A stretch of 64,000 nt of DNA, taken from a virus. Each line of letters begins with the position of its first letter. Position 1 is the stretch's first letter. The notes under the pieces are model-generated. The model was not told where the DNA came from. It ran no database searches and was given only the letters and a program-made list of their open reading frames with translations. This document shows, piece after piece, positions 5,045 to 57,175 of this stretch. Location: positions 62,001 to 126,000 of IMG/VR virus record IMGVR_UViG_3300046533_000294; one strand, written 5' to 3'. A program made the translations under genes and the position numbers.

Positions 5045-5047
5045 GCA

Positions 5048-6112
5048 GTGGCAGCAGTAGCCATGCCCAAATGGTGGGCCGACAAGAGACTCCGCAAAGA
5101 AGCTCTGGAGTTGAAGCTCGGACTCAGGAAACGGCCCAGCGACGTACCACACATTCCGGCGGGCAGCCCGGTGGACAGGGAACTGAACAAGTTCCAGAAG
5201 TGGGCGCTTTGGATCGCAGCTGGCAAGAATCCACAGACGCGCCCGAAGGACATCTGGAAAGCTGTACCTGACAAGATGTATTGGGACGTTCTGACCCAGT
5301 ACATTAAGCTGCACAGCACCCCGCCACCGCAAAAACCACCGATTCAGCCCAGCCTTCCACCTAGCAAGTGGAAGAACACGCCGTGGGTGGTCAAGCACGT
5401 ACATACCAGCCACGGTTTGCGCAAGGACGACGGCGTCTGGACGATCGACCAGTTGATCGCCAGGGCCAAAACGGCCAAATGCCAAGCGATCATCTGCCAG
5501 ATTGGTGGAGACACACCCGACCCAGACTGGGCAGAGAACGCCCGAGCACTCTACAAGGCCGGAAAAGCAGCAGGTCTGAGGATTGGGGCCTGGGGCCGGA
5601 TGGACTACGTCAATTGGGAAACGGTCAAGGCCATGATCAAGAGCGTTCTGCCGTTGGACGGCGTTCTGGCTGATATCGAGGGTCGATGTCAGGATCAGGC
5701 GCTACCCGAGAAGCTCGTCAAGGAGTTTCCCAACCTACCAATGGGGGTGATCGCTACCGGAGCAATTGATCAGTCTCTCGACGGCCTCTCTCCACCAGCA
5801 GTTGCTCAACGTTGGGGTGACCACTTCGACTTCGTGGGGCAGGACTACCACAAAGCCGACAACCCGATGACGCCTGATACTGGTGAGAACTTCGTCTACT
5901 GGCGCTCGACTGCCAAGGTCACCAGTGGGTTCAGGCATCTGCCCGAGGCGAAGGGGCGTTGGCACATTCCGGTGGTCATGCCGAGTGCCGAGACGTGTCC
6001 GCCGCTAGAGGCTCATCGTGCTTGGCTCAGGGACTACACGCCGCACTACGGCGTCTGGGACGGCGAGCTGGTGGAGGCCAATGGCGAGTGGGGCGTGTTC
6101 GCCAGTATTTAA
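5048..6112 (+). CDS. Glycoside-hydrolase-like TIM-barrel protein (possible lysin)
   Basis: 354 residues from GTG 5048 (AAGTAGG upstream); an ATG at 5063 is an alternative. The first ~110 residues are basic and Pro-rich. Residues ~115-350 show the strand/helix rhythm of a TIM barrel with GLRIGAWGRMDY, GVLADIEGRC and FDFVGQDYHKAD on successive strands, as in GH18/GH25-like phage glycosidases. The acidic residues of DIEGR are candidate catalytic groups. It may degrade cell wall or capsule glycans. The family assignment is by pattern only. Confidence 0.55.
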   Translation: MAAVAMPKWWADKRLRKEALELKLGLRKRPSDVPHIPAGSPVDRELNKFQKWALWIAAGKNPQTRPKDIWKAVPDKMYWDVLTQYIKLHSTPPPQKPPIQPSLPPSKWKNTPWVVKHVHTSHGLRKDDGVWTIDQLIARAKTAKCQAIICQIGGDTPDPDWAENARALYKAGKAAGLRIGAWGRMDYVNWETVKAMIKSVLPLDGVLADIEGRCQDQALPEKLVKEFPNLPMGVIATGAIDQSLDGLSPPAVAQRWGDHFDFVGQDYHKADNPMTPDTGENFVYWRSTAKVTSGFRHLPEAKGRWHIPVVMPSAETCPPLEAHRAWLRDYTPHYGVWDGELVEANGEWGVFASI

Positions 6113-6137
6113 CATCTAACCAATGAAAGGAGAGCAG

Positions 6138-6797
6138 ATGCGAAAGATCATTGTGGCGCTGGCAGTGGCCGGTGCTACGTTCGGGATCGCGACCGCAGTC
6201 AGCGCGAGCATCCCAAGCCCCAACGGCGTGTTTCATGGTTGTTATGCTCTGCACAACCAGACGACCGACAAGGGCGTTCTGCGCTTGGTCAACTTCGATC
6301 AAGGCGAGGGTTGCCGCTTCTATGAGGCACCAGTCGCGTGGAACAAGGCAGGCCCGACTGGCCCCAAGGGGGCAACAGGCCCGCCTGGCCCAAGAGGCCC
6401 AACCGGCAAGCCAGGCCCAACTGGCCCGAAAGGCCCCAAAGGAACAACTGGGCCGAAGGGTGCGACAGGCCCGCCAGGCCCGAAGGGCGTCACTGGTGCT
6501 CCGGGGCCAAAGGGCGCCACTGGTGCTCCTGGCCCCAAGGGTGCTACTGGGCCCAAAGGCCCGACAGGGATGAGAGGCCCAACCGGGCCCAAAGGCCCAA
6601 CCGGCCCCAGAGGGCCAACGGGCACTGGTCAGCGTGGAGCGACTGGGCCAACAGGCCCAGGTGGGAAAGACGATGACGACAACTTCACCATCCTGCCGGT
6701 CTGCGAGAACACGTCGTCTGGTGAACTGCACGTCAGTCCGCCCCACAGCTGTACAGGCCAGGACGAGATCATCATCCATCTCGTGAAGGCACCATAA
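6138..6797 (+). CDS. Secreted collagen-like protein
   Basis: ATG 6138 follows AAAGGAGAGCAG. Order: signal peptide ([23 protein letters not shown]); a short domain with [25 protein letters not shown]; about 35 Gly-X-Y triplets mostly of GPTGPKG type (about residues 73-180); a C-terminal domain with CENTSSGEL and HSCTGQ. The N-terminal domain before GPTGP repeats is a layout familiar from secreted proteins of actinobacteria. The exported product could coat the host or assist adhesion. It may be host-derived, not a structural gene. Confidence 0.65.
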
Positions 6798-7141: not shown

Positions 7142-7245
7142 GCGAGCGGGGTTGGTTCATAGTCGGTTTCATGACCGGTATGGGCACATGTGGGATCATC
7201 TTGGCAATTGTGGTCGAAATCGCCCTCTACAGAGCAGTCGTTTGA
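7138..7245 (+). CDS. Tiny membrane protein (35 aa)
   Basis: One hydrophobic span (GWFIVGFMTGMGTCGIILAI) in 35 residues. Start overlaps the upstream stop (ATGA) and its stop overlaps the resolvase ATG (TGATG). RBS GTGAAAGGG lies 6 bases upstream. Function unknown. Confidence 0.55.
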   Translation: MSERGWFIVGFMTGMGTCGIILAIVVEIALYRAVV

Positions 7246-7838
7246 TGGAAGGGCTATATGCGATCATGGCCATTGATCCGGGTGGATCTACCGGCGTAGC
7301 CTGGGGCGTCTTTCACGATGAGGCCGAAACGGTGAAGGAAACCATCGACGGCAAGATCTGCACCGGGCAGCGCACTTATGAGGGCTACCCAAGGCAGCAG
7401 GTATATGACATTTGCTGTCTTTGGCGTCGTTTGTACATGGAATGGGTGTTCGGGCTGGGGATCAAGCCGGAAGACTGTCATATGGTGATCGAGGACATCA
7501 TTGTGGGCCCGAATACACCACCCGGCAAGGATGTCAAGATAGCAATTGAGATTGGGCGTGGGATCTACTACTACAGGCTGGGCTCTGCACATGAGCACGA
7601 GCGTTGGAACTGCGGATGGGTGCCTCCGGTGCGAGTCAGCTGGCAAACGCCCTCCCAGGCCTCGGGATTTGCTCGCAAAGAGCGTCTCAAGGACTGGGGC
7701 GTATGGATTCGAGGCAAAGAGCACGAGCGGTCGGCGTGGAAGCACATTGCGTTGTACGTGGGTCGGCACATGGAAGCTCGTCGCGCCGCCTCGCGCGTAT
7801 ACGCGCGCGTACGCGCGACCCGAGCGCGAGCCCAGTAG
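7245..7838 (+). CDS. RuvC/RNase H-like Holliday junction resolvase
   Basis: 197 residues. AIDPGGSTGVAWGVF near residue 9 matches the first strand and Asp of RuvC-like nucleases, and MVIEDIIV near residue 80 gives the second acidic position. The C-terminal helix reads HERSAWKHIALYVG, where many relatives have Asp before Ala-Trp; here Ser takes that place, so the last metal ligand may be another acid. Such enzymes resolve branched DNA before packaging, which fits its place upstream of terminase. The last residues (RVYARVRATRARAQ) are encoded by a CGCGTA-rich palindromic stretch. Confidence 0.65.
   Translation: MEGLYAIMAIDPGGSTGVAWGVFHDEAETVKETIDGKICTGQRTYEGYPRQQVYDICCLWRRLYMEWVFGLGIKPEDCHMVIEDIIVGPNTPPGKDVKIAIEIGRGIYYYRLGSAHEHERWNCGWVPPVRVSWQTPSQASGFARKERLKDWGVWIRGKEHERSAWKHIALYVGRHMEARRAASRVYARVRATRARAQ
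7792..7807. repeat. 16-bp palindrome CGCGCGTATACGCGCG
   Basis: A perfect palindrome inside the 3' end of the resolvase gene. The identical 16-mer occurs at 55121-55136 in a non-coding region, and shorter relatives lie at 3836-4050. A binding site for a phage or host protein is a possibility. Confidence 0.6.
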
Positions 7839-7863
7839 CCAAGCCGTTTCTACGCCCAGCCGC

Positions 7864-7885
7864 GATCCAGGGTAGGATCGCGGTC
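7864..7885 (+). promoter_or_regulatory. GATC..GGGTAGGATCGCGG motif
   Basis: Second copy of the motif seen at 6817-6836. Here it also forms a 7-bp hairpin (GCGATCC...GGATCGC at 7862-7881) just ahead of the GTG start at 7886. It could be a promoter -10 region (TAGGAT) or an operator. Confidence 0.4.
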
Positions 7886-8089
7886 GTGATCTACCCCGGT
7901 ATCACCGTGATGCCACGGCCCCCGGTCGCAACTCGACCGCCGGACTACCAACCCATCGCTCAGGGACTCGATCAGCAATACCCGCTGACTGGGACGTACG
8001 AGTGGTCTCCAGATCTGGACTGGTGGCACGATTGGCTCCACACCAGCGACATCAAATACCAGGCCCGCCCACCTTGTAGGCCGATCTGA
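7886..8089 (+). CDS. Hypothetical protein (67 aa, GTG start)
   Basis: Starts at GTG 7886 and ends in TGATG overlap with the terminase small subunit gene. Pro-rich N-terminus, then a Trp/Asp-rich part (YEWSPDLDWWHDWLHTSD). Function unknown; the position suggests a packaging-associated accessory protein, which is an inference. Confidence 0.5.
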   Translation: MIYPGITVMPRPPVATRPPDYQPIAQGLDQQYPLTGTYEWSPDLDWWHDWLHTSDIKYQARPPCRPI

Positions 8090-8901
8090 TGGCCAAAGTC
8101 GTCAAGACTCGCCGCAAGGGCAGAGGCGGCCACAACCCACCGCCCGAGCCGAGGCGTGGCCCGCGCCCCAGGAAGGGTCTCACCGCAGCGGTAGACAAAG
8201 GTGGGTTGGAGACCAAACTGAAGCCGAGAGATCGCAGCAAGCAGAAACTCTCAGCTGGACTCCCTGGCTTCCAAGCACAGGCAGCAACTGCTCTCGGCGG
8301 CAAGTGTAACGCTATGAAGCGAGATGGGGTGGGCCGGTGTACGCTGCCGGCAGGGTTCGGAACTGACCACCCTCAGATAGGCAGGTGTAAGTATCACTCT
8401 GGGAACACGCCTACCGGGAACAAGCATGCGATCGTGGAGCGCGCTCGGCTCATGGGCGCTCCGATCGACATGAACCCGGTAGAAGCCATCATTTGGTCGA
8501 TCCGCATTACTGCCGGTGAGGTCAAGTGGCTCTCGGAGCAGATTGCGGCGCTCGACAAGAAGGATTGGCACGAGGACACCATCATCGGCAAACAGATGCA
8601 TCTGTACGTGCGAGAGCGGCGCGACCGCGTGGGCTTGCTCTACAAGATGGGGAACGACGCCATCAAGCTTGGCCTAGCAGAACGCGCCATCAAGATGGCC
8701 GAGATGTATGGGGTCGCTCTCAGCAGGTTCATCATGGGCGTTCTTGAAGATCTCCAGTTGACCGAGGAACAAGCTGTTAGAGTGCCCACGATCGTGCGCA
8801 AGCATCTGATAGCCTTGGAGGGCAATAAGCCGATCGGCGACGATCTAGCGACCATGACGATCGAGGGCAAGGCTGAGGAGGTCAAGCAATTAGTAGCCTG
8901 A
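8089..8901 (+). CDS. Terminase small subunit-like protein
   Basis: 270 residues. Basic N-terminus; a zinc-binding segment near residues 74-104 (KCNAMKRDGVGRCTLPAGFG, then GRCKYHSG) of the type found in actinophage terminase small subunit-like proteins; then a long helical C-terminal half. It would recognise phage DNA and load the large subunit. It directly precedes the large terminase gene, and its last codons carry GAGGAGG, the likely RBS of that gene. Confidence 0.65.
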   Translation: MAKVVKTRRKGRGGHNPPPEPRRGPRPRKGLTAAVDKGGLETKLKPRDRSKQKLSAGLPGFQAQAATALGGKCNAMKRDGVGRCTLPAGFGTDHPQIGRCKYHSGNTPTGNKHAIVERARLMGAPIDMNPVEAIIWSIRITAGEVKWLSEQIAALDKKDWHEDTIIGKQMHLYVRERRDRVGLLYKMGNDAIKLGLAERAIKMAEMYGVALSRFIMGVLEDLQLTEEQAVRVPTIVRKHLIALEGNKPIGDDLATMTIEGKAEEVKQLVA

Positions 8902-39958: not shown

Positions 39959-40045
39959 CTAGGGCCGCTTTATGAATCCTAGAAACATTACAACAGCGAT
40001 GATCCCAACCTCAATGAGCAGAATCCATGACTGCGTATTGGTCAT
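39959..40045 (-). CDS. Tiny membrane peptide (28 aa)
   Basis: ATG 40045 with AGAAGGAGTTGAGAATCGT upstream and ATGA overlap with the ThyX-like gene. The whole product is one hydrophobic span (SWILLIEVGIIAVVMFLGFI) ending KRP. Function unknown; one of the several tiny membrane peptides. Confidence 0.5.
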   Translation of the reverse strand: MTNTQSWILLIEVGIIAVVMFLGFIKRP

Positions 40046-40950
40046 ACGATTCTCAACTCCTTCTTTGGCTTGAAGCGCCGGTTCTCCTCGATGGCATAGG
40101 GGAAGTCGCATTGACCCTCGACTTTCTCCCAGCCCTGGAACTCGCACATATGAGTCTTCTCGCAGGTGATCTTGATGTACGGCTCCAGCCAGGGGTGAGC
40201 CTCAACTAGCAGCTTGCCCATCTCGCGGAAGCAGTACACGATCTCATGCTGGAACATCGTACACGCCCGGTAGGCGTACGTGGCGATGAACTCCCGGAGC
40301 GGGTACTCGCACTGGATGTAGTTGGTGGTTCCTTCCGGCAGGATGTAGCGAGCGTCCTGGTAGCTTACGTCGTGGAGGCAGGCCACCCGGTACGCCTCGT
40401 GCGCTGCCGCGAGCGCCTTCAGGTAGGCGTCACGGACAGGGATCGGAGCACGCCAGATCGACTCTGGCATTCGAGCTTGGGGCTGTGTTCCATACCAGGT
40501 AGCTCGCTGGCTCTGCTGGTGGAACCCGGCCTTGCGCGTTCGGACAAGCTGGTGAGTACAGCACCGACTTACGCCGGTGATCTCGAAGACGACAACCTGG
40601 GTCTCCAGGGAGGATTGTAGTCCTCCCCGGAGCATTTCGTCCCAGTCCGCCATCTCACCAGGATCGTTGATGTCGATTCCCGTAGTCGCCCGGAGTGCAC
40701 GGCTCTGAACGGCACGGAAGTCTTCCTCATTGATTCCTTGCACGAGACGCACCTGGATGTCGTCTACACCAATCGAGATCTTCGCGTTGTTGAACGGACT
40801 ATTGTGAGTCCCTTCCTGGTTCTTGGAATGGCGGTTGAAGGCCACATCCCTCCCCAGAGGAGTCTCGTGATAGTCCATGGACGCTCGGCTCGGGTGGTAG
40901 TAGGCGTACTCCTGGTCAACTGTCTCGATGTAGATGAGATGCGGATCCAT
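40042..40950 (-). CDS. ThyX-like flavin-dependent thymidylate synthase family protein
   Basis: 302 residues. Near residue 134, QLVRTRKAGFHQQSQR fits the ThyX signature R-x-R-x7-S-x-R, with Thr in place of the usual His of RHR. Later SYQDARYILPEGTTNYIQCE and FQHEIVYCFREMGKLL match the C-terminal FAD/dUMP region. Normal ThyX methylates dUMP to dTMP using folate and FAD. The protein is longer than typical (~220-250), so a changed substrate cannot be excluded. Confidence 0.7.
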   Translation of the reverse strand: MDPHLIYIETVDQEYAYYHPSRASMDYHETPLGRDVAFNRHSKNQEGTHNSPFNNAKISIGVDDIQVRLVQGINEEDFRAVQSRALRATTGIDINDPGEMADWDEMLRGGLQSSLETQVVVFEITGVSRCCTHQLVRTRKAGFHQQSQRATWYGTQPQARMPESIWRAPIPVRDAYLKALAAAHEAYRVACLHDVSYQDARYILPEGTTNYIQCEYPLREFIATYAYRACTMFQHEIVYCFREMGKLLVEAHPWLEPYIKITCEKTHMCEFQGWEKVEGQCDFPYAIEENRRFKPKKELRIV

Positions 40951-40952
40951 CG

Positions 40953-41351
40953 CTAGCCCTTCTGGCTGACGATGTTCTTACCTGCCTTCGACTTTATGAA
41001 AGCAGCTTGCGCTGAAGCGTCGAGTTTCTTGGGGACAACCCTTTTGATCACTGGTGCCGGCGCGGCCACGAGTCGAACGGCTGCCTTACGTGCCTTGCTA
41101 TCTGCCGCTGCCGTCTGCTCGACGCCACCGAACCCGGTGTATGTCTCGCCCTTCTTGTACATCTGGCCCTTGGTTCGAGGCGCTGTGTACCGCCAAGAGA
41201 TCCTACAGATCCCCGGCATGCTGAAGTCGTAGCCGTCGGAGATCTCCTCTTCTGCGATCTGGGCGAGCGCGTCCATGACGTTCTTGGACAGTTTCGGTTT
41301 GACGCCGGTCAGCTCCTCGACGGCTTGTGCCAACTCATTTTTGCTCAGCAC
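40953..41351 (-). CDS. HU/IHF-like DNA-binding protein
   Basis: 132 residues. LSKNELAQAVEELTGVKPKL and the following helix and strands (FSMPGICRISWRYTAPRTKG) fit the HU-fold, followed by a basic Ala/Lys/Val tail, as in actinobacterial histone-like proteins with extended C-termini. Likely bends or compacts phage DNA. Confidence 0.65.
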   Translation of the reverse strand: MLSKNELAQAVEELTGVKPKLSKNVMDALAQIAEEEISDGYDFSMPGICRISWRYTAPRTKGQMYKKGETYTGFGGVEQTAAADSKARKAAVRLVAAPAPVIKRVVPKKLDASAQAAFIKSKAGKNIVSQKG

Positions 41352-41741: not shown

Positions 41742-44700
41742 CTACGCATCGGGGTCTATTACCCACATCTTGCTTGCCCTGACCTCGCGCGCAGCACGGA
41801 ATCCAGGCTTCACGCCTTGAACTACTACAACGTCCTTGTTCAGGCGCAGGCCCCAAAGAGCCTTTCGGAAACCAGGATACTTGTAGCGGTCTACACGGAT
41901 CGACACCAGCTCGGTGCCGTCATAGCCTGCCGCGATCATCCACTCGTTTAGATCCGGCCGGTCTATAGACTCGGGGTCAACTTCGACTCCACGAGCCTTG
42001 TTGATCTCGAAAATGTCCCGAAGGTTGCGCTGGACGACCACACCTATCCAGGTCACTTCCGTGTCGCGCCCACGCTCGTATGGAACTTCGAGCGCGGTAT
42101 GGGTTGGCTCCGGGAGGCCCAATCTGGGCATGTCGGTCTTGACCTTCTGGATGAGATTATCCAGGGTGTAGATTCCGAACACGTCCGGTTGGCTAACCCA
42201 ATCTTGTATCGAGGCCGATGTCTTCGGCCCGAATCCTTTGATGCGCTCGATCTCGCCCCACTCCGTGAGCCCCATCTCATCTCGTCCCTCAATCAGAGCT
42301 TGTGCCTTCGACTCTCCGATGCCAGGAATCTGGAGCAGCCCGCCGTGGAGCGTCCGATTCTGGTCGTTATATGTCCAAGTCATTTCAGCCGTATCAAAGT
42401 GTGGAGCCTCAATCAAGAAGCTATGGTTGACGGCGTCGCGGAGGGCGACCGTCTCTGGATCAATCTTGGCCTTGGAGACAGCCGAGGCTTTCGTGTTGCC
42501 GCGCGAGCCGGATGTGTTAGCCGAGGAGCGTGCCGACACGCCACGGAGTAGCCACTTGTACCAGGTTCCTTGGTGATGGACTTTGAAGTGTCCGTCCCAC
42601 CAGGCGATGTACCCGTAGGAGATCGTGTGAGCTGCGTTAAATGCGTACGAACCGGCAGTGATGCAGTCACCCCAAATTGCTCGCGCCGTCTGCTCGTCCA
42701 TCTCCGGTACGTCCATTCGCTCGTGAAGCGTCTGCGCTCCTTCCCAGAAGCGATGCCACTGCCTCTGGAACTCCTGGTCGCCTAGCTTCTTGGAAATGAT
42801 GCGACGGATGTGAGCGGCGTGAGTCCAGTCAAAGTTTCCGATCTCACGGACAATGCGCAGAATTTGTTCCTGGTAGATGATCTGATAATAAGTATCTGCC
42901 GTGATGGATGCAAGAGCAGGATGTGATACTGTGGGCTTAACGAGACCACGCTTGATGTCGATGTACGACTGAGCAGATCCGTTATGGAGCGGGCCAGGTC
43001 GAGCAAGCGCGGTGATGTCGCATACCTCTCGAAAGCTGTCAGGCTTGAGAGCGCCGCTAATGCTTCGTACAGCTCGTCCCTCATACTGAAAGATACCTGT
43101 GACGTCGTTAGCCCTGAACAATGATATGACATCCTCGTCCTCCGTCGGGATGGTGTACAGGTAGCTGGTGGGCTCGCCGATGTCGCGGCAGCATCCCGCG
43201 AGCCGATCCATCGCGTTCAGCCTGAGGTAGTCGAGCTTGAGGAGTCCGAGATATTCTGCATCGTACTTATCAAGGCCAACAACTTTACGCACTCGTCCTT
43301 TGACAACTCGGGTGACAACGCTACACACATCTGTGATGGGCCCATTGGATACCACAACACCCGCAGCGTGTACCCCGAATCCCTTTGCATTGCCCTCAAG
43401 GCGCGTCGCCGTCGCCAGCGCTGGATACTCAACCAGAACCTTTGACGCCTGCTCGAACTGCTCAAATGTATCTTCAATCGTGGCGCTAGCGCGAAGATCT
43501 CCTGAGGATCGTTCGATGAGGACATCCTTCACCTTCTCTACTTCATAGATTGGAATGTTGTAGACACGGGCGATATCGTCGAGGGCCAACTTGCTCTTAT
43601 ACATTGTAAACGTCCCAACGTCGCTGACGCAATCGCGACCATAGCGGGCGATGAGGTAGTCCACAACTTCGTGTCGTCTCTCCGCCTCGAAATCCACGTC
43701 GATGTCAGGTAGATCCTGCCGCGAGATGTCAATGAACCTCTCAAATACAAGATGGTCAAAGAGCATTGGATTGACCTCAGTGATGCGGAGTAGCCAACAC
43801 GCCAGTGAGGCGGCGGCAGATCCGCGTGCCGGGCCAACCGCAATTCCGCTGTCTTTCGCCCAGCGTAGAGAGTCGCTAACAACGAGGAAATAATCAATAA
43901 AGTCCTTCTCCTCGATGATCCCCATTTCATAGCGCAGCCTTTCCGCGTACCGCTCGCGCTCGCGGCGCGGCAGCTTGTGGCACTTGCGCTCTCGCCACCC
44001 CTGCCTCAACCACTCCCGCCAGGTCGCTTTGGAATCTTTCGTCGGATATCGGAGCATAGGCAACTTGGGCAGTTCTACTTTGCACCGTTGTGCGATCTGT
44101 TCCGTGTTGAGGATGGCATCAATCGCTTGCTTGCGGGGCACACCCGTGGCTACGAGCTTACGCAGAATCGTGTTGTCGTTCGGGGCCACGCACAGGTCGG
44201 CGTTATAGCCCCAGCCACGGATCTGCTCCTCCAGCGTCTGCTGCTTGCCCGGCCGGACGTTATGGAGCACCTGTTGTAGCTCCTTCTCGGTCGGCATCGT
44301 GTAGTGGCAGTCGAGCGTTACCACGAGCGGGATGTCTGTCTCGCGGGAGATGCGAGCTAGAGCTTCATTAGCCAGGCACGTTTCCTTGAGTTCAGGAAAT
44401 GCCTGAACCTCGATGTAATAGGAATCGCCAAAAGTACGGGCGAACCGTCTAGCCACATTTCGAGCCCTTTGGTAGGATGCGTCGCCAGCATCAATTCCTT
44501 TCCCTCCCATGAGTGAGGTGAAGAGCAAACTACTTTGGCAACCACTAAGAACGATGAGGCCATTGCCTCTGGTGGCAAGCATACTTCCTGATACAGTGGG
44601 CTGATGGTAGAATCCTTCATTGTTAGCCTCCGTGACGAGCCGAAGTAGGTTGCGATATCCCTCCTGCGTCTCGGCTAGGACGGTAAGATGATTCTTGGAC

Positions 44701-45113
44701 TGCGCGCGGTGATCTTCATCTATGGGCCCGCAGTAGAACTCGCATCCGAAGATGGACTGGACTCCTTCCTTACGCGCAGCCTGCTCAAACTTTGCATGAG
44801 AGAATACATTTCCGTGTTCAGTGAGGGCGAGGCTACCCATGCCAAGCTCAGTTGCCCTCCGCACGTGCGCTTCGGGCAGCGCATATCCATCCAGGAAACT
44901 GTAGGTGGAATGATGATGGAGACTGGCAAACCGCATCTCTCGCACGCTCCGATGTACGCGGGCAGTTCTCTTGTCTCTTCTGACGAGGACTGGCTGTTCT
45001 CCATTGGAACATTCCTCCTTGTGCCGATCGCGCCCGCTGAACGCGCTGATACCTGAGTCGCTCAGCGACTTCTTAAAGTCGCGCTGGACAATGTTGCTAG
45101 ATTTCTTCGCCAT
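41742..45113 (-). CDS. dnaE: DNA polymerase III alpha subunit (DnaE-like)
   Basis: 1123 residues from ATG 45113, the likeliest start; ATG 44936, where the PHP domain begins, is an alternative. PHP domain from HHHSTYSFLDG; palm motifs GPARGSAAASLACWLL (~425) and PDIDVDFEAERRHEV (~470) hold the catalytic Asp residues; FQYEGRAVRSISGALKPDSF and the HhH region GIGESKAQALIEGRDEM follow; the C-terminal OB domain is short. The first ~60 residues before PHP are an unusual basic extension. Replicates phage DNA. Confidence 0.85.
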   Translation of the reverse strand: MAKKSSNIVQRDFKKSLSDSGISAFSGRDRHKEECSNGEQPVLVRRDKRTARVHRSVREMRFASLHHHSTYSFLDGYALPEAHVRRATELGMGSLALTEHGNVFSHAKFEQAARKEGVQSIFGCEFYCGPIDEDHRAQSKNHLTVLAETQEGYRNLLRLVTEANNEGFYHQPTVSGSMLATRGNGLIVLSGCQSSLLFTSLMGGKGIDAGDASYQRARNVARRFARTFGDSYYIEVQAFPELKETCLANEALARISRETDIPLVVTLDCHYTMPTEKELQQVLHNVRPGKQQTLEEQIRGWGYNADLCVAPNDNTILRKLVATGVPRKQAIDAILNTEQIAQRCKVELPKLPMLRYPTKDSKATWREWLRQGWRERKCHKLPRRERERYAERLRYEMGIIEEKDFIDYFLVVSDSLRWAKDSGIAVGPARGSAAASLACWLLRITEVNPMLFDHLVFERFIDISRQDLPDIDVDFEAERRHEVVDYLIARYGRDCVSDVGTFTMYKSKLALDDIARVYNIPIYEVEKVKDVLIERSSGDLRASATIEDTFEQFEQASKVLVEYPALATATRLEGNAKGFGVHAAGVVVSNGPITDVCSVVTRVVKGRVRKVVGLDKYDAEYLGLLKLDYLRLNAMDRLAGCCRDIGEPTSYLYTIPTEDEDVISLFRANDVTGIFQYEGRAVRSISGALKPDSFREVCDITALARPGPLHNGSAQSYIDIKRGLVKPTVSHPALASITADTYYQIIYQEQILRIVREIGNFDWTHAAHIRRIISKKLGDQEFQRQWHRFWEGAQTLHERMDVPEMDEQTARAIWGDCITAGSYAFNAAHTISYGYIAWWDGHFKVHHQGTWYKWLLRGVSARSSANTSGSRGNTKASAVSKAKIDPETVALRDAVNHSFLIEAPHFDTAEMTWTYNDQNRTLHGGLLQIPGIGESKAQALIEGRDEMGLTEWGEIERIKGFGPKTSASIQDWVSQPDVFGIYTLDNLIQKVKTDMPRLGLPEPTHTALEVPYERGRDTEVTWIGVVVQRNLRDIFEINKARGVEVDPESIDRPDLNEWMIAAGYDGTELVSIRVDRYKYPGFRKALWGLRLNKDVVVVQGVKPGFRAAREVRASKMWVIDPDA

Positions 45114-45390
45114 AATGCACCCAGTTGTCGAGGATATTGTCTGCTTTGGTCTTCCCGTCAACAACGAGCATAACGCGGATCTCTCCGTGATAGCTCACGC
45201 GCGTGATCTCGGTGACTTCATCCGTGTCCTCCCAGCGCCGGTCTTCGGGTTGATAGACAATCATTGCGATGCCAGTCTTCCCCTCGTGATCGATCGTTGC
45301 ATATCTCTCGGCCAGGATCTTGCATGGACGGCCGCTATGAGTGATCATGAAGTAGAGCTGGAGCTGCTTTCTGAAGTCAGACTTTTTCAA
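45097..45390 (-). CDS. Hypothetical protein (97 aa)
   Basis: Overlaps the polymerase start by 17 bases and the methyltransferase stop by 14. Beta-rich with KTGIAMIVYQPEDRRWEDTD. No family recognised; small proteins before a polymerase gene may be accessory, which is only positional inference. Confidence 0.5.
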   Translation of the reverse strand: MKKSDFRKQLQLYFMITHSGRPCKILAERYATIDHEGKTGIAMIVYQPEDRRWEDTDEVTEITRVSYHGEIRVMLVVDGKTKADNILDNWVHYGEEI

Positions 45391-48415: not shown

Positions 48416-48684
48416 ACCAACTCCTTCGCTGCGTGTCTACCGGCGACGAGGCCGACCAGGAAGAAGTGCATGATCAAGGTATTGATTGCTGGCTCTATCA
48501 CCGGATCTATCGTCTTCCAAGCAGGATACTGTCGCTTAACAATACTAACACGTCGGTTGAGTAGATTATCGAACGCCTCGCGCTCGACTTCCAGATAGGT
48601 GAGCTGCCGACCGTAGTCCGGCGCACCGGCGTACGCCACTTGGAGCACCGTCTCTGCCCGCGCTAGGGCTTCCGCGTTGATCAT
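48412..48684 (-). CDS. Hypothetical protein (90 aa)
   Basis: ATGA overlaps on both sides. Helical with a hydrophobic segment (AINTLIMHFFLVGLVAGRHA) that may span the membrane or pack in a core. No family recognised. Confidence 0.5.
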   Translation of the reverse strand: MINAEALARAETVLQVAYAGAPDYGRQLTYLEVEREAFDNLLNRRVSIVKRQYPAWKTIDPVIEPAINTLIMHFFLVGLVAGRHAAKELV

Positions 48685-51455
48685 TTATGCTCCCTCAGGA
48701 TTGTGTGTAGTGTAGGCTCCACCCGGATGTCTCCGCCATCTTTGCGAACCATCCGCGCACTCCACAACTTGTTTATCTTCGCGTTGGCATCCTCCCTAGT
48801 CGTGTTCAGAATCTCCTCGATGTCTTGTCGTCTGAAGGTTGCGTTCGATCGAAGGAATTTGGCCAAGTCTCGGTTTGCTAGCAGATACTTGCGCATCATA
48901 TCTCGGTTGTTCTCAGCCTCGCGCCGATCCTCGAACACTTCATCGGAGCGGTCGCGGTAGCCGAACGTAGGCATCGAGTAGATATGGTGTAACAGAGCAA
49001 CGGCGTCGTGGACGTGCTCGTGCTTCACCATGATCTTCTCGTTCGTCTCGTCCGTGCTGAACGTCCTAGCGGCGAGCGCGGTAGAGATGCGAGCAATCTT
49101 CTCGCGTATGTCAGCGGCTTGGACTAGCGGTGGATCCTCGATGTACGCCTTGCCCACGAGCGTCGCTGTATCCAGGGCTGCCTTCTCTGCGCCTGGAGTC
49201 CAGACAATTTGCTCGGGCTTTCGCGTCCAGCACCACATGAGTAAGTTGTGGCACATCTCGGCGCTGTACTTCAACTCGCCCTGCTCAGTCGCGACGTTGT
49301 ACTGCTCGATTGGAATATCGTGCATCGTCACGGCCATCGCTATATCGAAGCGGGCGATGTCTTCCATCGCACCGATCAGCGGGCGCAGCGCGTCTACGCC
49401 GTAAGTGAACTGGCCCATGTTACCTCCGTTGCGCGGGTTGGCGAGCCAGATCATCCTCGTCCGGGCGTGCGTCGCCTCCTGCTGGATCTTGGAGATTCGC
49501 ACTACACCGTCGTTGCGCAGATCGGACATGTGGCCAATATCTTCGTATGAGAGCGCGGAGATCTCGTCTACTACAACCGCTCGACGGTCGTTGAGCGGAA
49601 TGACACCCCATGTAACAACCCATTCCTTTCCGCCAAGCTGCTGCAAACCGCCAACAAGTCCTGCATAAGACGCAGATTCTCCACCGACGATCTCACCTGC
49701 ACCGTAGTGACGGAGGAGCTGCCTTGCTGCCTCGGATTTTCCAGTTCGAGTGTCACCGTATACACAACTCTGGAGCCATCCCCGTCGGATGAGTTTACCG
49801 TTGAACTTGAACGAAAGTACAGAATGAAGCGTGAGATCAAAGATCGCATGCATCTCCCATCGGCCAGTGATACGGGTTACGTGGTCGCCCATCGCCTGTG
49901 CGATCTCTCTCAGCTTCCTGACGGGTCGCTGCTTCCCTCGGGGCTGGAATCGGCGTAGCTCACTAGCAGCTGTGCTACCCAATTCAAAATTGTCCAGAGA
50001 GGTTGATACAGGAGAGAGTTCCCAAGATAGAAACTCGTTTCTTTGATCTCTTGGGTTCGGATGAAGCGCCCCAAGCGCAGTGACAGTGTTATTGGGGAGA
50101 GTGTCGTGTCTTCCAACGCTAATGATGCGTAGAGTCTTGTATGACCCTGCCTCCTGACTGTCAGAGTGATCGAGCGACGGGCGGGCATAGAGAACCTCCA
50201 CGGATTGATATTCCTTCGGTTCGATGACTAGCTTGTTACACTTGACCGCTCCGTACTCCATCCTGATCGCGTCCCAAAGCTGCTGCTGACTCGCGTCAAT
50301 CAGGGCCAGTATCGTAGGGCTGTCGCCGTCTATCGTGACCTCAACCTGCCCGCCAGCAGGCTTCATAGGGCAAAACTGGCACTTGATCCCAGCGTCACGC
50401 GTACACGTGAGCTGAGCTGTGCGCGGCACGGTGTAACCCGGCTCTTTTTTGCCCTTAATGGTCACGATTAGATTGACAGGCTTCGCGATTCGTTTCGCGT
50501 CACTACTGTCCAGCACCGAGATAGTCTCTGGCCCTGATTCACTCGACTCAGTTTTCTGTTCCCACGGCTGGGCGTCTCGGAGCAGCCGCTCGAAGTCGTC
50601 ACGGTCGTGCTCCATCCAGAAGTCAGACAGATCCTTGCCGTGTTTCTCAGTCAGCTCGTACGGTAGAACAACAACACGGACGTCACAAACGCGAGAGAGA
50701 GCACGAGCCACGACCCGGTTAGCATCCACGCCAGTATCATCGCGGTCATGGCAGAGGTAGACCAACTTGTCCCTGAAAGCCTCATTCCATTCCTGCTTCC
50801 ACATCTTGGCTGATCCGGTCTTGGTGACCGCTGGATAGCCCGCCTGAATAGTTGCGAGTGCATCCCACTCCCCTTCACAGACGATGATCGTGTCGTAGAT
50901 GAGCTGGCTAGCCGGATAGAGAACTGGAGTATTGCGTCCGACCAAGCCCCAGATCTTCGTGTCGCCTCGCGGGCGAGGCGTATACCGGCGGATGTTCAGC
51001 AGCTCTCCGTCAGCCGCGTAGACAGGGATCGTGTAGACGTGTTTGTCCCGATCCCACCCGATGTGGAACTGCTTGAGCGTGTCCGACGTTAATCCACGCA
51101 GCCCTACGATCTCGTCTCGGGCCGCGTCCTCATCGAGCAGGTTCGCTGCCCAGGCGTCGGCCATTGCCTCTGACACGGCCTCTCGTCGGCGAGGGTTGGC
51201 TCCGTTCTTGCGAACGCGGGCTGCGGCCTGACTGTTGGGTGTGATCCACCGGGACTTCATCCCGATCAGATCCTTCACCGTACAGCCGCCGCAGCCCGCT
51301 TGGCAGTAGAACTGAGCAGAGTACACGTTGATCGACGCCGAGCGTTTCGTATCCGCATGTAGCGGACACAGCAAGTACCACTCGCCGTCCTCGCGCGGCC
51401 CATCCGTGACAAAGTAGTCTCGGAGTAGCCTGATCTGCCCGTTCTTAATCGGCAT
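48681..51455 (-). CDS. Primase fused to MCM-like helicase
   Basis: 924 residues. Residues ~25-60 form a CHC2-type zinc finger (YLLCPLHADTKR, FYCQAGCGGCTVKDLIG); ~100-260 a TOPRIM primase core (IIVCEGEWDAL ~190, YLCHDRDDTGVDANR). A linker with KCQFCPM follows, then an AAA+ domain: Walker A VYGDTRTGKSEAARQ (~566), GGESASYAGLVGG, Walker B RAVVVDEISAL (~628), ARTRMIWLANPR and ARFDIAMAV, all in MCM order. The C-terminus is winged-helix-like. It would unwind DNA and prime lagging strands in one polypeptide. Confidence 0.7.
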   Translation of the reverse strand: MPIKNGQIRLLRDYFVTDGPREDGEWYLLCPLHADTKRSASINVYSAQFYCQAGCGGCTVKDLIGMKSRWITPNSQAAARVRKNGANPRRREAVSEAMADAWAANLLDEDAARDEIVGLRGLTSDTLKQFHIGWDRDKHVYTIPVYAADGELLNIRRYTPRPRGDTKIWGLVGRNTPVLYPASQLIYDTIIVCEGEWDALATIQAGYPAVTKTGSAKMWKQEWNEAFRDKLVYLCHDRDDTGVDANRVVARALSRVCDVRVVVLPYELTEKHGKDLSDFWMEHDRDDFERLLRDAQPWEQKTESSESGPETISVLDSSDAKRIAKPVNLIVTIKGKKEPGYTVPRTAQLTCTRDAGIKCQFCPMKPAGGQVEVTIDGDSPTILALIDASQQQLWDAIRMEYGAVKCNKLVIEPKEYQSVEVLYARPSLDHSDSQEAGSYKTLRIISVGRHDTLPNNTVTALGALHPNPRDQRNEFLSWELSPVSTSLDNFELGSTAASELRRFQPRGKQRPVRKLREIAQAMGDHVTRITGRWEMHAIFDLTLHSVLSFKFNGKLIRRGWLQSCVYGDTRTGKSEAARQLLRHYGAGEIVGGESASYAGLVGGLQQLGGKEWVVTWGVIPLNDRRAVVVDEISALSYEDIGHMSDLRNDGVVRISKIQQEATHARTRMIWLANPRNGGNMGQFTYGVDALRPLIGAMEDIARFDIAMAVTMHDIPIEQYNVATEQGELKYSAEMCHNLLMWCWTRKPEQIVWTPGAEKAALDTATLVGKAYIEDPPLVQAADIREKIARISTALAARTFSTDETNEKIMVKHEHVHDAVALLHHIYSMPTFGYRDRSDEVFEDRREAENNRDMMRKYLLANRDLAKFLRSNATFRRQDIEEILNTTREDANAKINKLWSARMVRKDGGDIRVEPTLHTILREHK

Positions 51456-51464
51456 TACTAATTG

Positions 51465-52247
51465 CTAGAAGGGCTCTTCATTGTCGTCCGCGCGGAGCGC
51501 GGCGATGTAGTTGGCCTTGGTAGCCTTGGCGCCCTTCTTGAGGGAGAGATCGCGCTTGCCGAACTCCTCCTTCAAATCACCGACTGGCCACTCGTCGTAG
51601 TCGTCGGTGTCCTCGGCACGGATCGCCTCGCGGATGTCGTCGTCCGACATCTTTGTGGTGACCTTGATCTCCAGCCCTTCGGACTTGATGTGCTTCTTCA
51701 GCTCAGCCCGATCCATCTCATCGAGGGGGTCGGCCTCGGCCTCAGGCTCCTCCTCCTCCTCAACTTCTTCTTCCTCCTCCTCAGGCTCGTCCTCTTCAGT
51801 CTCCTCCTCCTCGTCAACTTCCTCCTCGTCAGTTTCCTCCTCGTCCTCGTCCTCCTCATCGGCCTCGTCGTCCTTGGCCTTGAGCCAGGTCTTCAGCCGG
51901 GCCTTGTACGCGCCGTCGTACTCGTCCTTTGTGACCTGGACGCGACACTCCTTGCCCACGAGCTTCTTGGGATCGAGCGATCCCTTCGCGGGCAGTCCGA
52001 GCGCGTCCGTGAACTCGCGCAGCTTCCATGCCGTCGCGTCGTACAGACCGATGTACGAGTGGAGCGGAGCGAATCCGTCGCCGACCGAGACGGTGACATG
52101 GAAGTCACCTTTGCCCTCGATCTTGGTACCGTCGGACTTCTCTGTCCGGTGCTCGACGGCCGTGATCTTGGCCTTGTAGATCTTCGGCGGTGCTTGCTCG
52201 CCGGCACCTGACTCGACATCGCTGACGTCGTACCTAATTGCTGGCAA
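51465..52247 (-). CDS. SSB-like protein with long acidic tract and SAP-like domains
   Basis: 260 residues from TTG 52247, chosen for GGAGG seven bases upstream (the frame is open to 52283). Residues ~20-125 are a beta-rich, OB-like domain (IYKAKITAVEHRTEKSDG, KECRVQVTKDEYDGAYKARL). Residues ~125-175 are almost purely Asp/Glu. Two short helical SAP/Rho-N-like domains follow (ELKKHIKSEGLEIKVTTKM, WPVGDLKEEFGKRDL). Overlap with the Sak4-like gene suggests joint expression and a role in ssDNA binding. Confidence 0.6.
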   Translation of the reverse strand: MPAIRYDVSDVESGAGEQAPPKIYKAKITAVEHRTEKSDGTKIEGKGDFHVTVSVGDGFAPLHSYIGLYDATAWKLREFTDALGLPAKGSLDPKKLVGKECRVQVTKDEYDGAYKARLKTWLKAKDDEADEEDEDEEETDEEEVDEEEETEEDEPEEEEEEVEEEEEPEAEADPLDEMDRAELKKHIKSEGLEIKVTTKMSDDDIREAIRAEDTDDYDEWPVGDLKEEFGKRDLSLKKGAKATKANYIAALRADDNEEPF

Positions 52248-53034
52248 CTGTGTTCCTCCTACGTCTGGTAGTGGTGGGCGCACTTTCGCGCGCCTGCTTG
52301 ATTGCTGCTTCTAGCTTTGGTACAGTCAGGTCGATTACCTGACCACTTGGAAAGGCATGGAACTGATCCTTTCCGTAGAACGCAGTGTTGCCTTTGAAAC
52401 GTGTCTTGGTGTATTGCTCTCCTTTCCGCTTCTTCGAGTCGTGGACTGTCTGGTAGCCAACCATCTGCATGTAGCCAGCGATCCGCTGTGGCATACCTTT
52501 GCCCTGGATCCACGGCATCATGCGCTCGGTGTATTGTGGGCCCATTTCCTCATCCGGCTCTCCTTCTTGGACTTCCATCCAGAACTGGTGAGCCGTGATG
52601 CCGAGATGGAACAGATCGCAGCCCATCATGAACCTCACCCATTCTGCGATTCTGCCCATGTTGACGCCGTAGTCGCCCTTGTCCCAGAAAGCGGTAGCGC
52701 GACGCGGGTTGCGTGCCTTCGCTACATCGAAGATGTCGTCCATGCCGACATCCTGCCAGCATGAGATCGAGTCGAGCCAGATCCATTCGTACGCATTGCC
52801 CTCGTGTCGAGCCCACGCAAGAACCTCGTTCATCCCCGACCAGTCCTTCACCAGCCAGTGATCCGCACCGCTATTCTTGATCGCGTCCAGGTGCTCGACG
52901 TACGGATGAACGATGAGCGTGTTCGCACCACCGCTTCCCGCGAGCGTCGTCTTGCGCGCGCCTGGATCTCCATAGACCAGGATGCGGTAGTGTTTGCTGG
53001 CCGTGATGGGCTGGATGTCGGCGGGCTTAGCCAT
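52234..53034 (-). CDS. Sak4/RecA-like recombination ATPase
   Basis: 266 residues. Walker A YGDPGARKTTLAG (~21-33), then IWLDSISCWQDVG as the Walker B segment (acidic residue after LD). Size and order match phage AAA_24/Sak4-type single-strand annealing ATPases. The basic tail TTRRRRN may bind DNA. With the nuclease and SSB-like genes it forms a recombination set. Confidence 0.65.
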   Translation of the reverse strand: MAKPADIQPITASKHYRILVYGDPGARKTTLAGSGGANTLIVHPYVEHLDAIKNSGADHWLVKDWSGMNEVLAWARHEGNAYEWIWLDSISCWQDVGMDDIFDVAKARNPRRATAFWDKGDYGVNMGRIAEWVRFMMGCDLFHLGITAHQFWMEVQEGEPDEEMGPQYTERMMPWIQGKGMPQRIAGYMQMVGYQTVHDSKKRKGEQYTKTRFKGNTAFYGKDQFHAFPSGQVIDLTVPKLEAAIKQARESAPTTTRRRRNTVASN

Positions 53035-53672: not shown

Positions 53673-53899
53673 GACGTTGTCTGTACCAGCTCGTAGCCGC
53701 CGACGCAGAGCAGGAACACGATCGTGAGTAGCCCGATCGCGACGAGAGCAATCCCTGCCCATTCTGCCGCGAACAGGAGCAGAGAGCCGGGCCGCGCTCT
53801 CATCGTGTTGATCAGACTGAGCTGCTCTGGTGGCTCTGGACGCGGGAAGACTTCTGTCTTGCCCTCGGACACCCAGCCTGGAGGGTCGATCTCGCTCAT
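53669..53899 (-). CDS. Membrane protein (76 aa)
   Basis: From ATG 53899 (ATGA overlap with the nuclease gene). Acidic, Pro-rich N-terminus (EIDPPGWVSEGKTEVFPRPE), then one strong hydrophobic span (GIALVAIGLLTIVFLLCVGG). A membrane protein within a recombination operon is unexpected; function unknown. Confidence 0.55.
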   Translation of the reverse strand: MSEIDPPGWVSEGKTEVFPRPEPPEQLSLINTMRARPGSLLLFAAEWAGIALVAIGLLTIVFLLCVGGYELVQTTS

Positions 53900-54897
53900 C
53901 TCTGCTCCGCTGCAATAACCTCGTGCTCCGCGTACGGATTCCAGATCTGTGTAGTTGATTCCATTAAGTCCTCCCAGTCGGTCTGGATCTCGTGGGCCTC
54001 GCAAATGTCGAACATGCTACATCCCTGACAAGTCCACTTCGTTGCGTTCTTGTAAATGAGGTCGCTGTCCTCGTGAAAAATCCAGGCGCTCTGAGTGGCG
54101 GCATGGATCTGCGCCCATTGTTTCTGGACGCGCTCATAAACGGAGTCGCGGTCTTTGTCGTCTCGGAACACCGGCTTGCGATCGAAATAGGGTGCCGGCT
54201 GCTTGCCAGAGATCGAGCCGTCCTTGTTGAGGTAGTTACCGCCGTTGTCCCTCGGGCGATCGTCGGGTGGCGCCTTACGAAGGAAGTTGAAGAGCAGTCC
54301 AGAGATCTGCGTACTCCGAGGGATCAGCTTCGCGCGATAGATGGCCTCGCGTCCGAATGTCCAGTACGCGCCCGCCTGCTCGTCAAGGAGAAGCCAGCGA
54401 GGGTGACGTTCAATACCGCCCGTCGTCTTGTGATCTGGCATCCAAATTTTCGCGGTTGGAAGGTGGCGCCAAACTCCGTCCACGACGCCGGTGTAGACAA
54501 ACGGGATCGCGTGCTTGACGCGTATGCTGAACGGATACTCGGTCGCGAGAACTTCCCACTCATCGTCTGCGCCGTAGTAATCGACATAGTTGGTGAGCAT
54601 CGCTGGGCCTAGCTCGGCAGCGTTGGCCCAGATCTCGTCCTCTTCAACCTTGAAGCCAAACTCACCGGCGGCTTTCGCATCTGCCTCGTATAGGCGCTCG
54701 AAAGTCAACGCTGGTTTCGGCCCACGCTTCTTGCCCGGCTTGTAGTACGCAGCGAGCGCGCCGTGAATGAGGGTGCCGAAGCGCAGCGGCGGTCTGTCGA
54801 TATTCGGCCGACGCGCGAGAACGTAGTTCAGGTACCACAGCCAACGACACCGTTCAAAAGTTGTTCTTTCCGACGTTCTGAGACGCGGAATGGTCAA
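53896..54897 (-). CDS. PD-(D/E)XK nuclease, Cas4/RecB-like
   Basis: 333 residues from TTG 54897, picked because GGAGGGAGCGCCC lies just upstream. FERCRWLWYLNYV near the start, LRFGTLIHGALAAYY (conserved His), VYTGVVDGVW and KIWMPDHKTTGG (~152, D...K motif) are the nuclease motifs. WTCQGCSMFDICEAH near the end gives Cys residues for an iron-sulfur or zinc site. It would resect DNA ends, working with the Sak4-like ATPase. Confidence 0.7.
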   Translation of the reverse strand: MTIPRLRTSERTTFERCRWLWYLNYVLARRPNIDRPPLRFGTLIHGALAAYYKPGKKRGPKPALTFERLYEADAKAAGEFGFKVEEDEIWANAAELGPAMLTNYVDYYGADDEWEVLATEYPFSIRVKHAIPFVYTGVVDGVWRHLPTAKIWMPDHKTTGGIERHPRWLLLDEQAGAYWTFGREAIYRAKLIPRSTQISGLLFNFLRKAPPDDRPRDNGGNYLNKDGSISGKQPAPYFDRKPVFRDDKDRDSVYERVQKQWAQIHAATQSAWIFHEDSDLIYKNATKWTCQGCSMFDICEAHEIQTDWEDLMESTTQIWNPYAEHEVIAAEQR

Positions 54898-54912
54898 GGG
54901 CGCTCCCTCCAA

Positions 54913-55237: not shown

Positions 55238-57106
55238 TTACAGTTGCTTCATCGCGATACGATGTACATCCAGCAGGATCTCGTTCAGCCGACGCTTGTC
55301 GGCAGTCGTGTCCTGGATGTATTGCTCGATTGTATCTTTCGAGCGGTAGTAGTAGCAAGTGACTTGATGGATACGCGAGATCCTGTGAATCCGGTCTTCC
55401 AATTGCTCCTGGTCGTCCGGGTTCCAGGTCTCATCCAGGATGTGGCAGGTATCGGCTTTGTCCAGCGTGATCGAAACGCCTCCGGCCGTTGTCGTCATAC
55501 AGACGACTCTCGGGCCGGCACCTTTCTGGAATTGCTGCTGGACTTTCACTCGTTCCTTGCCTTTGGTATCTCCGGTGATCTTCGCCACTGGGATGCCCTG
55601 CTTCTCTAACCAAGCAGCTACCATGTCCACCATTTCTCGGAACTGGCTGGCGATAATGGTCTGGGCGTCACCTTCAGGATCGTCTGGGTCAATCCCGATC
55701 TCGTTCAGCTTCTGGAGCAGTTGTGGCAACTTTCCAGAGTCCTCAGTCGGGATTAGTTTCTGCTTGACGACGATCCCCTCACCCAGGCAGTCTTCGCATC
55801 CGTGTAGCATGCCCTCATTCTTCTTGTGCTTGCATGCTACCTCGTACTCGTGGACGAGACAGACTGCGTTGGCGAACTGCTTCAACCGCAGGTACTCCGT
55901 CAGGATGTTGGTGGCAGACAGGTGCAGATCCTCGATGCGGATTTCGGCAGCTCGCGCAAATTCGCGATACTGCTTGTTCTGCTTCGGGGTCATATCACAC
56001 ATGACTTCCACCTGCTGCTTCGGAGGCAGCTGGCTCGCGACTTCCGACTTGAGACGGCGCACGAGGTATGGCGCATGAAAAGCATAGAAAGCCTCTTCAA
56101 TGCCGGGCTTCAGGCCCATGATGATCTTGTGGTTCCTGAAACCCTCCTCGATCACCAGCCACTGTTCAGCCCACTTCCACTTCGAGCTAAACCTGTCGGG
56201 GTCGATGAAGTTCAGCGCCGACCAGAGCTTAATTGGCTTGCCACCCATGGGCGTACCGCTCATAGGTATGCGTTTCTGGCCGTTAGGCCGTATCATGGCT
56301 TTTGCTAGCTTGGAGAACTGAGACGAGCCCTCGCAGAGTCCCGTCTTGTGGTACTCGTCGATGGTGATGCTCGTCCAGTTAGCTTCCATGAACACGTCTC
56401 GCCACGACTTCGAGCGTAGCATGCTCGCGGTCGTGACGAAAGCGTATCCTCCATAGACTCCCATGGCTTCCATGATCTGCTCAGGCAGCGCGTTGCGCTC
56501 CTTCGCAGATGTCTCGCTGTAGAGCGTGAACACCGGGATCTCGGTGAACCGCTCCAGTTCAAGTCGCCAGACAGTCTCCAGAGCAGTCTTCGGTGCAATG
56601 ATCAAGTGCTCTCCGCGTTCCATCTGAGCCTCGTGGATCGCACCGATGACTTCGATGGTTTTCCCGAGGCCCATCTGGTTCAGGTTGCCGGCGTTAGTCG
56701 CCGCCAGGAACGCGATGTCTGCCCGCTGGTACGGTCGATCGGGCCAGTTCTCAGTCCCGTCGCCTGCGATTAGCTCAACGATACCAGGAACTGTGACCGG
56801 ACAGTACACCAGCTCCGCATCCTCTGCGAGCGCGAGGCCCGACAGGTTCCGCTCACGTTGAACCTCGTCCCTGCCCCACTGGAGCAGGTTCGGGCCCAGC
56901 ACGAGCTGTTGCTGGAACAGATGACGCAGGATGCGGCCAGTCGGCAGATCGAGAGGCACTGTCCAAGCCGGGCCACCTTTCTCAGGTGGAACGAACCGGC
57001 TGTTGGGCACCTTGAACTTGATGGTGTCCTTGATACGGACTTCATAGCTGAACCGGAGCCAGATACGTTTCCCATCTGGCGAGAGTTCAGCGGTGATTTT
57101 ACTCAC
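55238..57106 (-). CDS. SNF2-family DNA helicase/ATPase
   Basis: 622 residues from GTG 57106, which follows GAAGGAGGGTCA. NQMGLGKTIEVIGAIHEA (motif I, ~143), SITIDEYHKTG (motif II, DEYH in place of DEAH, ~249), MSGTPMGGKPIKLWSALNFI (motif III region), and the second lobe with PVAKITGDTKGKERVKVQQQ, GGVSITLDKADTCHILDETW and EDRIHRISRIHQVTCYYY. DNA-dependent translocase used in replication or repair. The N-terminal ~100 residues are a separate beta-rich region. Confidence 0.75.
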   Translation of the reverse strand: MSKITAELSPDGKRIWLRFSYEVRIKDTIKFKVPNSRFVPPEKGGPAWTVPLDLPTGRILRHLFQQQLVLGPNLLQWGRDEVQRERNLSGLALAEDAELVYCPVTVPGIVELIAGDGTENWPDRPYQRADIAFLAATNAGNLNQMGLGKTIEVIGAIHEAQMERGEHLIIAPKTALETVWRLELERFTEIPVFTLYSETSAKERNALPEQIMEAMGVYGGYAFVTTASMLRSKSWRDVFMEANWTSITIDEYHKTGLCEGSSQFSKLAKAMIRPNGQKRIPMSGTPMGGKPIKLWSALNFIDPDRFSSKWKWAEQWLVIEEGFRNHKIIMGLKPGIEEAFYAFHAPYLVRRLKSEVASQLPPKQQVEVMCDMTPKQNKQYREFARAAEIRIEDLHLSATNILTEYLRLKQFANAVCLVHEYEVACKHKKNEGMLHGCEDCLGEGIVVKQKLIPTEDSGKLPQLLQKLNEIGIDPDDPEGDAQTIIASQFREMVDMVAAWLEKQGIPVAKITGDTKGKERVKVQQQFQKGAGPRVVCMTTTAGGVSITLDKADTCHILDETWNPDDQEQLEDRIHRISRIHQVTCYYYRSKDTIEQYIQDTTADKRRLNEILLDVHRIAMKQL

Positions 57107-57175
57107 CTGACCCTCCTTCTCATTGGAGCTTCTGCTCCACGAGGCGGGGTGGGACACGGGTTCACCTAGAGTGTC
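57107..57175 (-). promoter_or_regulatory. Hairpin/RBS leader module of the SNF2 gene
   Basis: A GGAGC AGAA GCTCC hairpin precedes GAAGGAGGGTCA and GTG 57106; an outer GGACAC...GTGTCC pairing lies upstream. The same architecture as the small-gene leaders, used here for a long gene. Confidence 0.6.

Follow-up and report, generated by a model that had tools for sequence, protein, structure and literature searches.

The primase-MCM gene and its neighborhood

The window analyzed here is a stretch of 64,000 nucleotides (positions 62001 to 126000) from the virus record IMGVR_UViG_3300046533_000294. It contains a gene whose product has a DnaG-type primase in residues 1 to 300 and a divergent but complete MCM module in residues 318 to 924 (Table 1). 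The interval given for this gene in a preliminary description of the DNA, 48681 to 51455, is correct, and the reading frame was found on the minus strand as a single ORF of 924 codons; a plus-strand reading was ruled out, as it is riddled with stops. The motifs quoted in that description (GDTRTGKSE, GGESASYAGLVGG, AVVVDEIS, ARTRMIWLANPR, and ARFD) are all present in the translation, and the primase half contains CPLH...CQAGC, CEGEWDAL, and HDRDD.

Table 1. Domains of the primase-MCM protein and associated replication genes, in window coordinates
Feature	Residues	Position	Strand	Basis or remark
Primase-MCM fusion gene	924 aa	48681..51455	minus (51455 -> 48681)	single ORF, ATG start
CHC2-type zinc finger	28-60 (C30, H33, C51, C55)	51276..51374	minus	
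DnaG-type catalytic core	95-295; TOPRIM 188-283 (E194, D237, D239, D275)	50571..51173	minus	
MCM N-terminal domain	318-508; four invariant Cys (C351, C359, C362, C406)	49932..50504	minus	
MCM-type AAA+ motor	527-800	49056..49877	minus	Pfam MCM, profile alignment, model, residue counts
C-terminal helical/winged-helix-like end	850-922	48690..48908	minus	model; MCM profile alignment reaches here
Probable single-strand binding protein		51465..52283	minus	DDNEEPF terminus after an acidic linker; adjoins primase-MCM on its upstream side
Sak4-like recombinase		52234..53034	minus	phrog_124 6e-19
PD-(D/E)XK exonuclease		53896..54912	minus	phrog_1218 3e-67, PF12705
SNF2-type helicase/translocase		55238..57157	minus	PF00176 7e-34
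C-family DNA polymerase (DNA Pol III alpha, PHP domain)		41742..45164	minus	PF07733 6e-69, PF02811

The window phage is contractile tailed, with genes for terminase, portal, tail sheath, and tape measure present. The primase-MCM gene belongs to a minus-strand replication block that also encodes the SNF2 translocase, the PD-(D/E)XK exonuclease, the Sak4-like recombinase, an acidic-tailed ORF, and DNA polymerase III alpha, the last being the probable phage replicase. Genes for a ThyX-type thymidylate synthase and an HU-like DNA-binding protein adjoin the polymerase gene (40042-40950 and 40953-41351, minus strand). The DDNEEPF end of the acidic-tailed ORF resembles the tip of bacterial SSB, and the gene at the equivalent upstream place in Paenibacillus phage SV21 is annotated as SSB. 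At 27 of 47 related loci the upstream ORF ends in PF; most of these ORFs carry an acidic tail and a few do not. PHROGs labels the family of this ORF as unknown or as "DNA polymerase." Searching the window for Rfam families and tRNAs gave no matches.

The whole record, of 129,757 b, consists of two colinear, related, and nonidentical genomes of about 64.5 to 65 kb placed end to end, with 72 to 95% nucleotide identity between the halves along most of their length. Another copy of the primase-MCM gene in the record encodes a protein with 86% amino acid identity to the window protein. Since relatives have single genomes of 57 to 65 kb, assembly likely joined two related phages into this record.

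The fusion architecture occurs as one open frame in 47 aligned sequences with 33 to 78% identity to the window protein. Residues K573, D630, E631, N673, R702, D237, D239, and D275 are present in 47/47 members and E194 is present in 45/47. Judged by the single frame and the residues conserved through these 47 sequences, the architecture is not a product of chance.

The primase half

The preliminary description had assigned a CHC2 zinc finger and a TOPRIM core to the N terminus, and both assignments hold, on the evidence of a Pfam TOPRIM match in the window protein (Toprim_2, 8.5e-8), residue conservation, and the PF01807 matches of relatives. The CHC2 finger of the window protein itself scores below the Pfam threshold (0.16), and PF01807 is significant in 24 of 47 relatives. 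Among the zinc ligands, C30 and C51 are found in all 47 members, H33 in 43, and C55 in 31, the fourth ligand being one that shifts position among family members. PHROGs likewise places primase families on the first half of the protein. By sequence, the family profile matches solved structures of DnaG (2au3, 2e-19) and of the T7 gp4 primase (1nui, 2.7e-9), and the primase half aligns with T7 gp4 (E = 8.5e-9). Residues E194, D237, D239, and D275 align with the TOPRIM metal-binding positions of T7 gp4. With both the CHC2 ligands and the catalytic glutamate and aspartates in place, the N-terminal half belongs by sequence to the DnaG/TOPRIM primases. The TOPRIM glutamate is missing from two of the 47 members, and some relatives may therefore have lost the ability to prime. 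The archaeo-eukaryotic primase (AEP) domain PF01896 was found by Pfam in none of the 47 TOPRIM-MCM members.

The helicase half

MCM is the DNA-unwinding motor type of archaea and eukaryotes. The helicase half had been described as following the motif order of MCM and not the RecA-like DnaB fold, and profile and fold matches to MCM, together with the poor T7 gp4 score given below, agree with that reading. Top profile matches outside the MCM clade, named in the preliminary description as evidence against its reading, were looked for and not found: MCM was the sole P-loop Pfam family in the 47 singly scanned members (42 of them at E <= 1e-3), a result insufficient as a single proof in that the Pfam MCM model also fires in E. 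coli and other bacteria that lack MCM. In the window protein the model scores 5.7e-6 (26.1 bits versus a gathering cutoff of 23.3), and PHROGs matches the second half to phrog_18685 ("unknown function," 5e-68) and phrog_10371 ("DNA helicase").

The family profile aligned with a profile of seven archaeal-virus MCMs over 469 columns (E = 1.2e-17). Since a profile target is not directly comparable to single-sequence controls, the comparison was redone with single MCM sequences, which gave E values of 9.6e-10, 9.7e-9, 1e-8, 3.9e-7, 1.2e-6, 1.3e-6, and 1.5e-4. The controls gave 1.2e-5 for the Mg-chelatase YifB (168 columns), 1.2e-3 for RuvB, 0.03 for RavA, 0.04 for P4 alpha, and 0.3 for T7 gp4. Generic AAA+, SF3, and DnaB identities were ruled out for the helicase half, the controls RuvB, RavA, P4 alpha (SF3), and T7 gp4 (DnaB) being without a match.

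A structure model built with AlphaFold2 from 47 sequences had a mean pLDDT of 87.5 and a pTM of 0.63, and in a PDB fold search with the full model the best 50 matches were all MCM (E = 7e-22 to 2e-19). Within the motor, Walker A (residues 567 to 574), the helix-2 insert (about 592 to 617), Walker B (627 to 631), sensor 1 (N673), and the arginine finger (R702) were located, and K573, D630, E631, N673, and R702 line up with the MCM catalytic positions. Modeled strands pair at 602-607/611-616 in the helix-2 insert and at 651-655/659-663 in the pre-sensor-1 beta-hairpin (residues 651 to 663), which carries K656, a residue kept in 45 of 47 members. The N-terminal domain is of the zinc-binding OB type, and its four cysteines are conserved in 47/47. 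By sequence profile alone, residues 318 to 508 gave no MCM match (E = 0.05); modeled in isolation (pLDDT 91), the domain retrieved MCMs and nothing else as its 50 top PDB folds, at E values of about 1e-5 and TM scores of about 0.5. Residues 850 to 922 were modeled as helices followed by two short strands, a secondary structure compatible with a winged helix; alone this end matches MCM weakly (E = 0.0024), and it is covered by the long MCM alignment. The model thus indicates that the helicase half is a whole MCM subunit, N-domain included, extending beyond an MCM-like AAA+ core.

The alternative that the primase is joined not to MCM but to an AAA+ ATPase of the Mg-chelatase/MoxR or a generic type is very improbable and already largely refuted. 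YifB of E. coli does score better than the weakest single MCM, and the firing of the Pfam MCM model in MCM-less bacteria such as E. coli also speaks for this alternative. However, Mg-chelatase, a near relative, gives a weak and partial match confined to 168 columns, whereas the MCM matches span the N-domain, motor, and C terminus, and both fold searches returned MCM only in the top 50.

The MCM identified here is divergent. A GDPxxAKS Walker A and an IDEFDKM-type Walker B are signatures of canonical MCM (MCM2-7 and archaeal MCM). Both are absent from the window protein, which has GDTRTGKS and VVDEISALS in their places, and their absence argues for a divergent MCM lineage, not canonical MCM. 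Divergence extends to sensor 2, for which no residue could be placed with confidence. The protein shares with archaeal and eukaryotic MCMs the N-domain, AAA+ core, helix-2 insert, pre-sensor-1 hairpin, and arginine finger, but it differs from them in its fused primase, in GDTRTGKS versus GDPGxAKS and VVDEIS versus DEFD, in its cysteine spacing, and in invariant, lineage-specific tryptophans at positions 612, 616, 741, and 743. From its sequence, then, the gene is identified as a fusion of a bacterial-type (DnaG-like) primase to an MCM motor, an architecture that is real and widespread in viruses.

Distribution and exchange of the primase half

Phages of Microbacterium (36 records), Arthrobacter, and Weizmannia carry full-length homologs, as does an uncultured Manatee Spring record; a search by the helicase half brings in Bacillus and Paenibacillus phages. 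One pattern scan of IMG/VR recovered at least 282 relatives, and a similar scan of 84,980 prokaryote genomes gave one match, in a Microbacteriaceae bin, where the 59.6-kb contig that holds it probably belongs to a phage; the sensitivity of pattern scans is limited, and these counts are lower bounds. The one prokaryotic match, set against the number in IMG/VR, suggests that the TOPRIM-MCM form is phage borne and rarely integrated. The view that MCM is uncommon in bacterial viruses was too strong, given the hundreds of phage contigs that carry this architecture and the AEP-MCM fusions, such as BcMCM, that have already been reported; MCM in bacteriophages is likewise known (PMC5862659, PMC4538821). 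Krampusvirus gp47 ("DNA primase") and Wollypog gp50 ("DNA primase/helicase") are full-length homologs with about 33% identity and the same domains, and their GenBank entries carry no MCM annotation. While individual TOPRIM-MCM genes are in GenBank under such names, no description of the TOPRIM-MCM fusion or of the primase exchange was found in the literature searched, which was covered in part.

The gp45 protein of Bacillus phage vB_BboS-125 contains the same helicase half (E = 1.3e-84 over 598 columns). Its primase is of the archaeo-eukaryotic type, PF01896 being present in 8/8 scanned gp45-type proteins, and its AEP half gave no alignment with the TOPRIM primase half (E = 0.07). DnaG and AEP primases are mutually unrelated. 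About 20 more IMG/VR loci have a gp45-like arrangement of AEP primase and MCM module. Some Bacillus phages thus have this MCM module attached to a primase of the unrelated AEP type, which shows that an exchange of the primase half took place. In a tree of the helicase half, the AEP group forms a single clade (support 1.0) amid TOPRIM-bearing sequences; the node that bears on the direction of exchange has a support of 0.46. BcMCM, an AEP-MCM protein from a Bacillus cereus prophage, was grouped with gp45 by shared architecture and by its description in PMC4538821. Both resemble the window protein in having an N-terminal primase fused to an MCM helicase and differ from it in the primase, which is AEP in those proteins and CHC2-TOPRIM here.

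A split form occurs on a metagenome-bin contig (L135; 4935 to 8588), where one gene encodes the primase plus N-domain (4935-6623) and another the AAA+ motor (7233-8588), two small ORFs lying in the gap. No intron was found that would account for the split, and there was no Rfam match.

Replication role and proposed mechanism

Among 14 family genomes (G000 to G006 and W01 to W07), MCM is present in 14/14 and DnaB_C (PF03796) in none. Nine of these genomes encode a C-family polymerase and the other five encode PolA, the two being mutually exclusive. The simplest reading is that the primase-MCM protein serves as both fork helicase and primase. Queuosine-pathway genes (QueC, QueD, a radical SAM/QueE protein, and FolE) lie downstream of the primase-MCM gene in Weizmannia and Bacillus phages (L009, L011) and suggest a modified guanine in the phage DNA.

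The gene probably encodes the phage replicative primase-helicase, a 3'-5' MCM ring on the leading-strand template with its primases at the lagging-strand exit. Domain content, conserved active sites, and gene company come from the computations, and the hexamer, its direction, and its N-first orientation are drawn from MCM biochemistry. Six subunits would form a ring around the leading-strand template and travel 3'-5' with the N-domain leading, so that the displaced lagging strand would exit at the zinc-finger face of the N-domain. The tethered TOPRIM primases would capture the strand there and lay RNA primers, which would serve the polymerase of the phage (Pol III alpha in this one, PolA in relatives), and the PF-tailed single-strand binding protein of the adjoining gene would coat the exposed strand. 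SsoMCM translocates N-first (PMC6831031), and in yeast the MCM N-tier carries the primase Pri1 over the zinc-finger channel, the lagging-strand exit (PMC10501992); by analogy with Pri1, an N-terminally fused primase would be expected on the same exit face. It is also conceivable that the divergent MCM could be nonprocessive or active at initiation only.

The protein had been proposed as a functional analog of T7 gp4. The coupling of primase to helicase supports the comparison: TOPRIM-DnaB primase-helicases such as T7 gp4 have a homologous primase half with the same metal-binding residues and the same primase-then-helicase order. The motor differs, being a RecA-like DnaB fold in those proteins and MCM here, and the comparison does not extend to the geometry. 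The T7 gp4 ring encircles the lagging strand, whereas the MCM motor is expected to move 3'-5' on the other template strand; by analogy, the geometry should be closer to that of CMG plus Pol alpha-primase than to that of T7 gp4.

Two other modes of action deserve consideration. An MCM-type ring could melt the phage origin and prime once, after which a recruited host DnaB would unwind the bulk of the fork. The absence of DnaB from all family genomes would leave room for such recruitment, and the polymerase of the window phage is of the bacterial C-family type; we nonetheless consider this unlikely, as a general domain scan found no DnaB-loader homolog among the genes scanned, and a fork helicase that works alone is in keeping with how strictly primase and ATPase residues are conserved and with polymerase partners of either the A or the C family. 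Quite unlikely, too, is a T7 gp4-like arrangement in which the MCM-fold ring would surround the lagging-strand template and move 5'-3', the primase following behind on that strand. Such an arrangement would accord with the alignment of the primase half to T7 gp4 and with the identical domain order, but the helicase half has no T7 gp4 match, the DnaB_C domain is absent, and MCM relatives of measured direction, among them the AEP-MCM fusion BcMCM, are 3'-5' helicases (PMC4538821).

Implications for phage replication

DnaB and MCM are unrelated motors that move in opposite directions on opposite strands. The combination of a bacterial primase, an MCM motor, and bacterial-type polymerases, with a sister group that bears the other primase type, suggests that replication parts are interchangeable in nature. 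With about even confidence, we propose that a phage lineage swapped DnaB for an MCM ring amid bacterial parts, giving an MCM chassis with exchangeable primases and polymerases and a self-contained 3'-5' primosome. If so, the chassis would accept primases as unrelated as TOPRIM and AEP, as well as polymerases of the unrelated C and A families, within a replisome otherwise made of bacterial parts, here a TOPRIM primase and a C-family Pol III alpha. With its primase covalently held where the lagging strand leaves the ring, such a protein would be a counterpart, in a single polypeptide, of CMG plus Pol alpha-primase. Phages of Microbacterium foliorum and Bacillus subtilis, both ordinary laboratory hosts, also offer a small, single-gene system in which the coupling of priming to a 3'-5' ring is directly testable.
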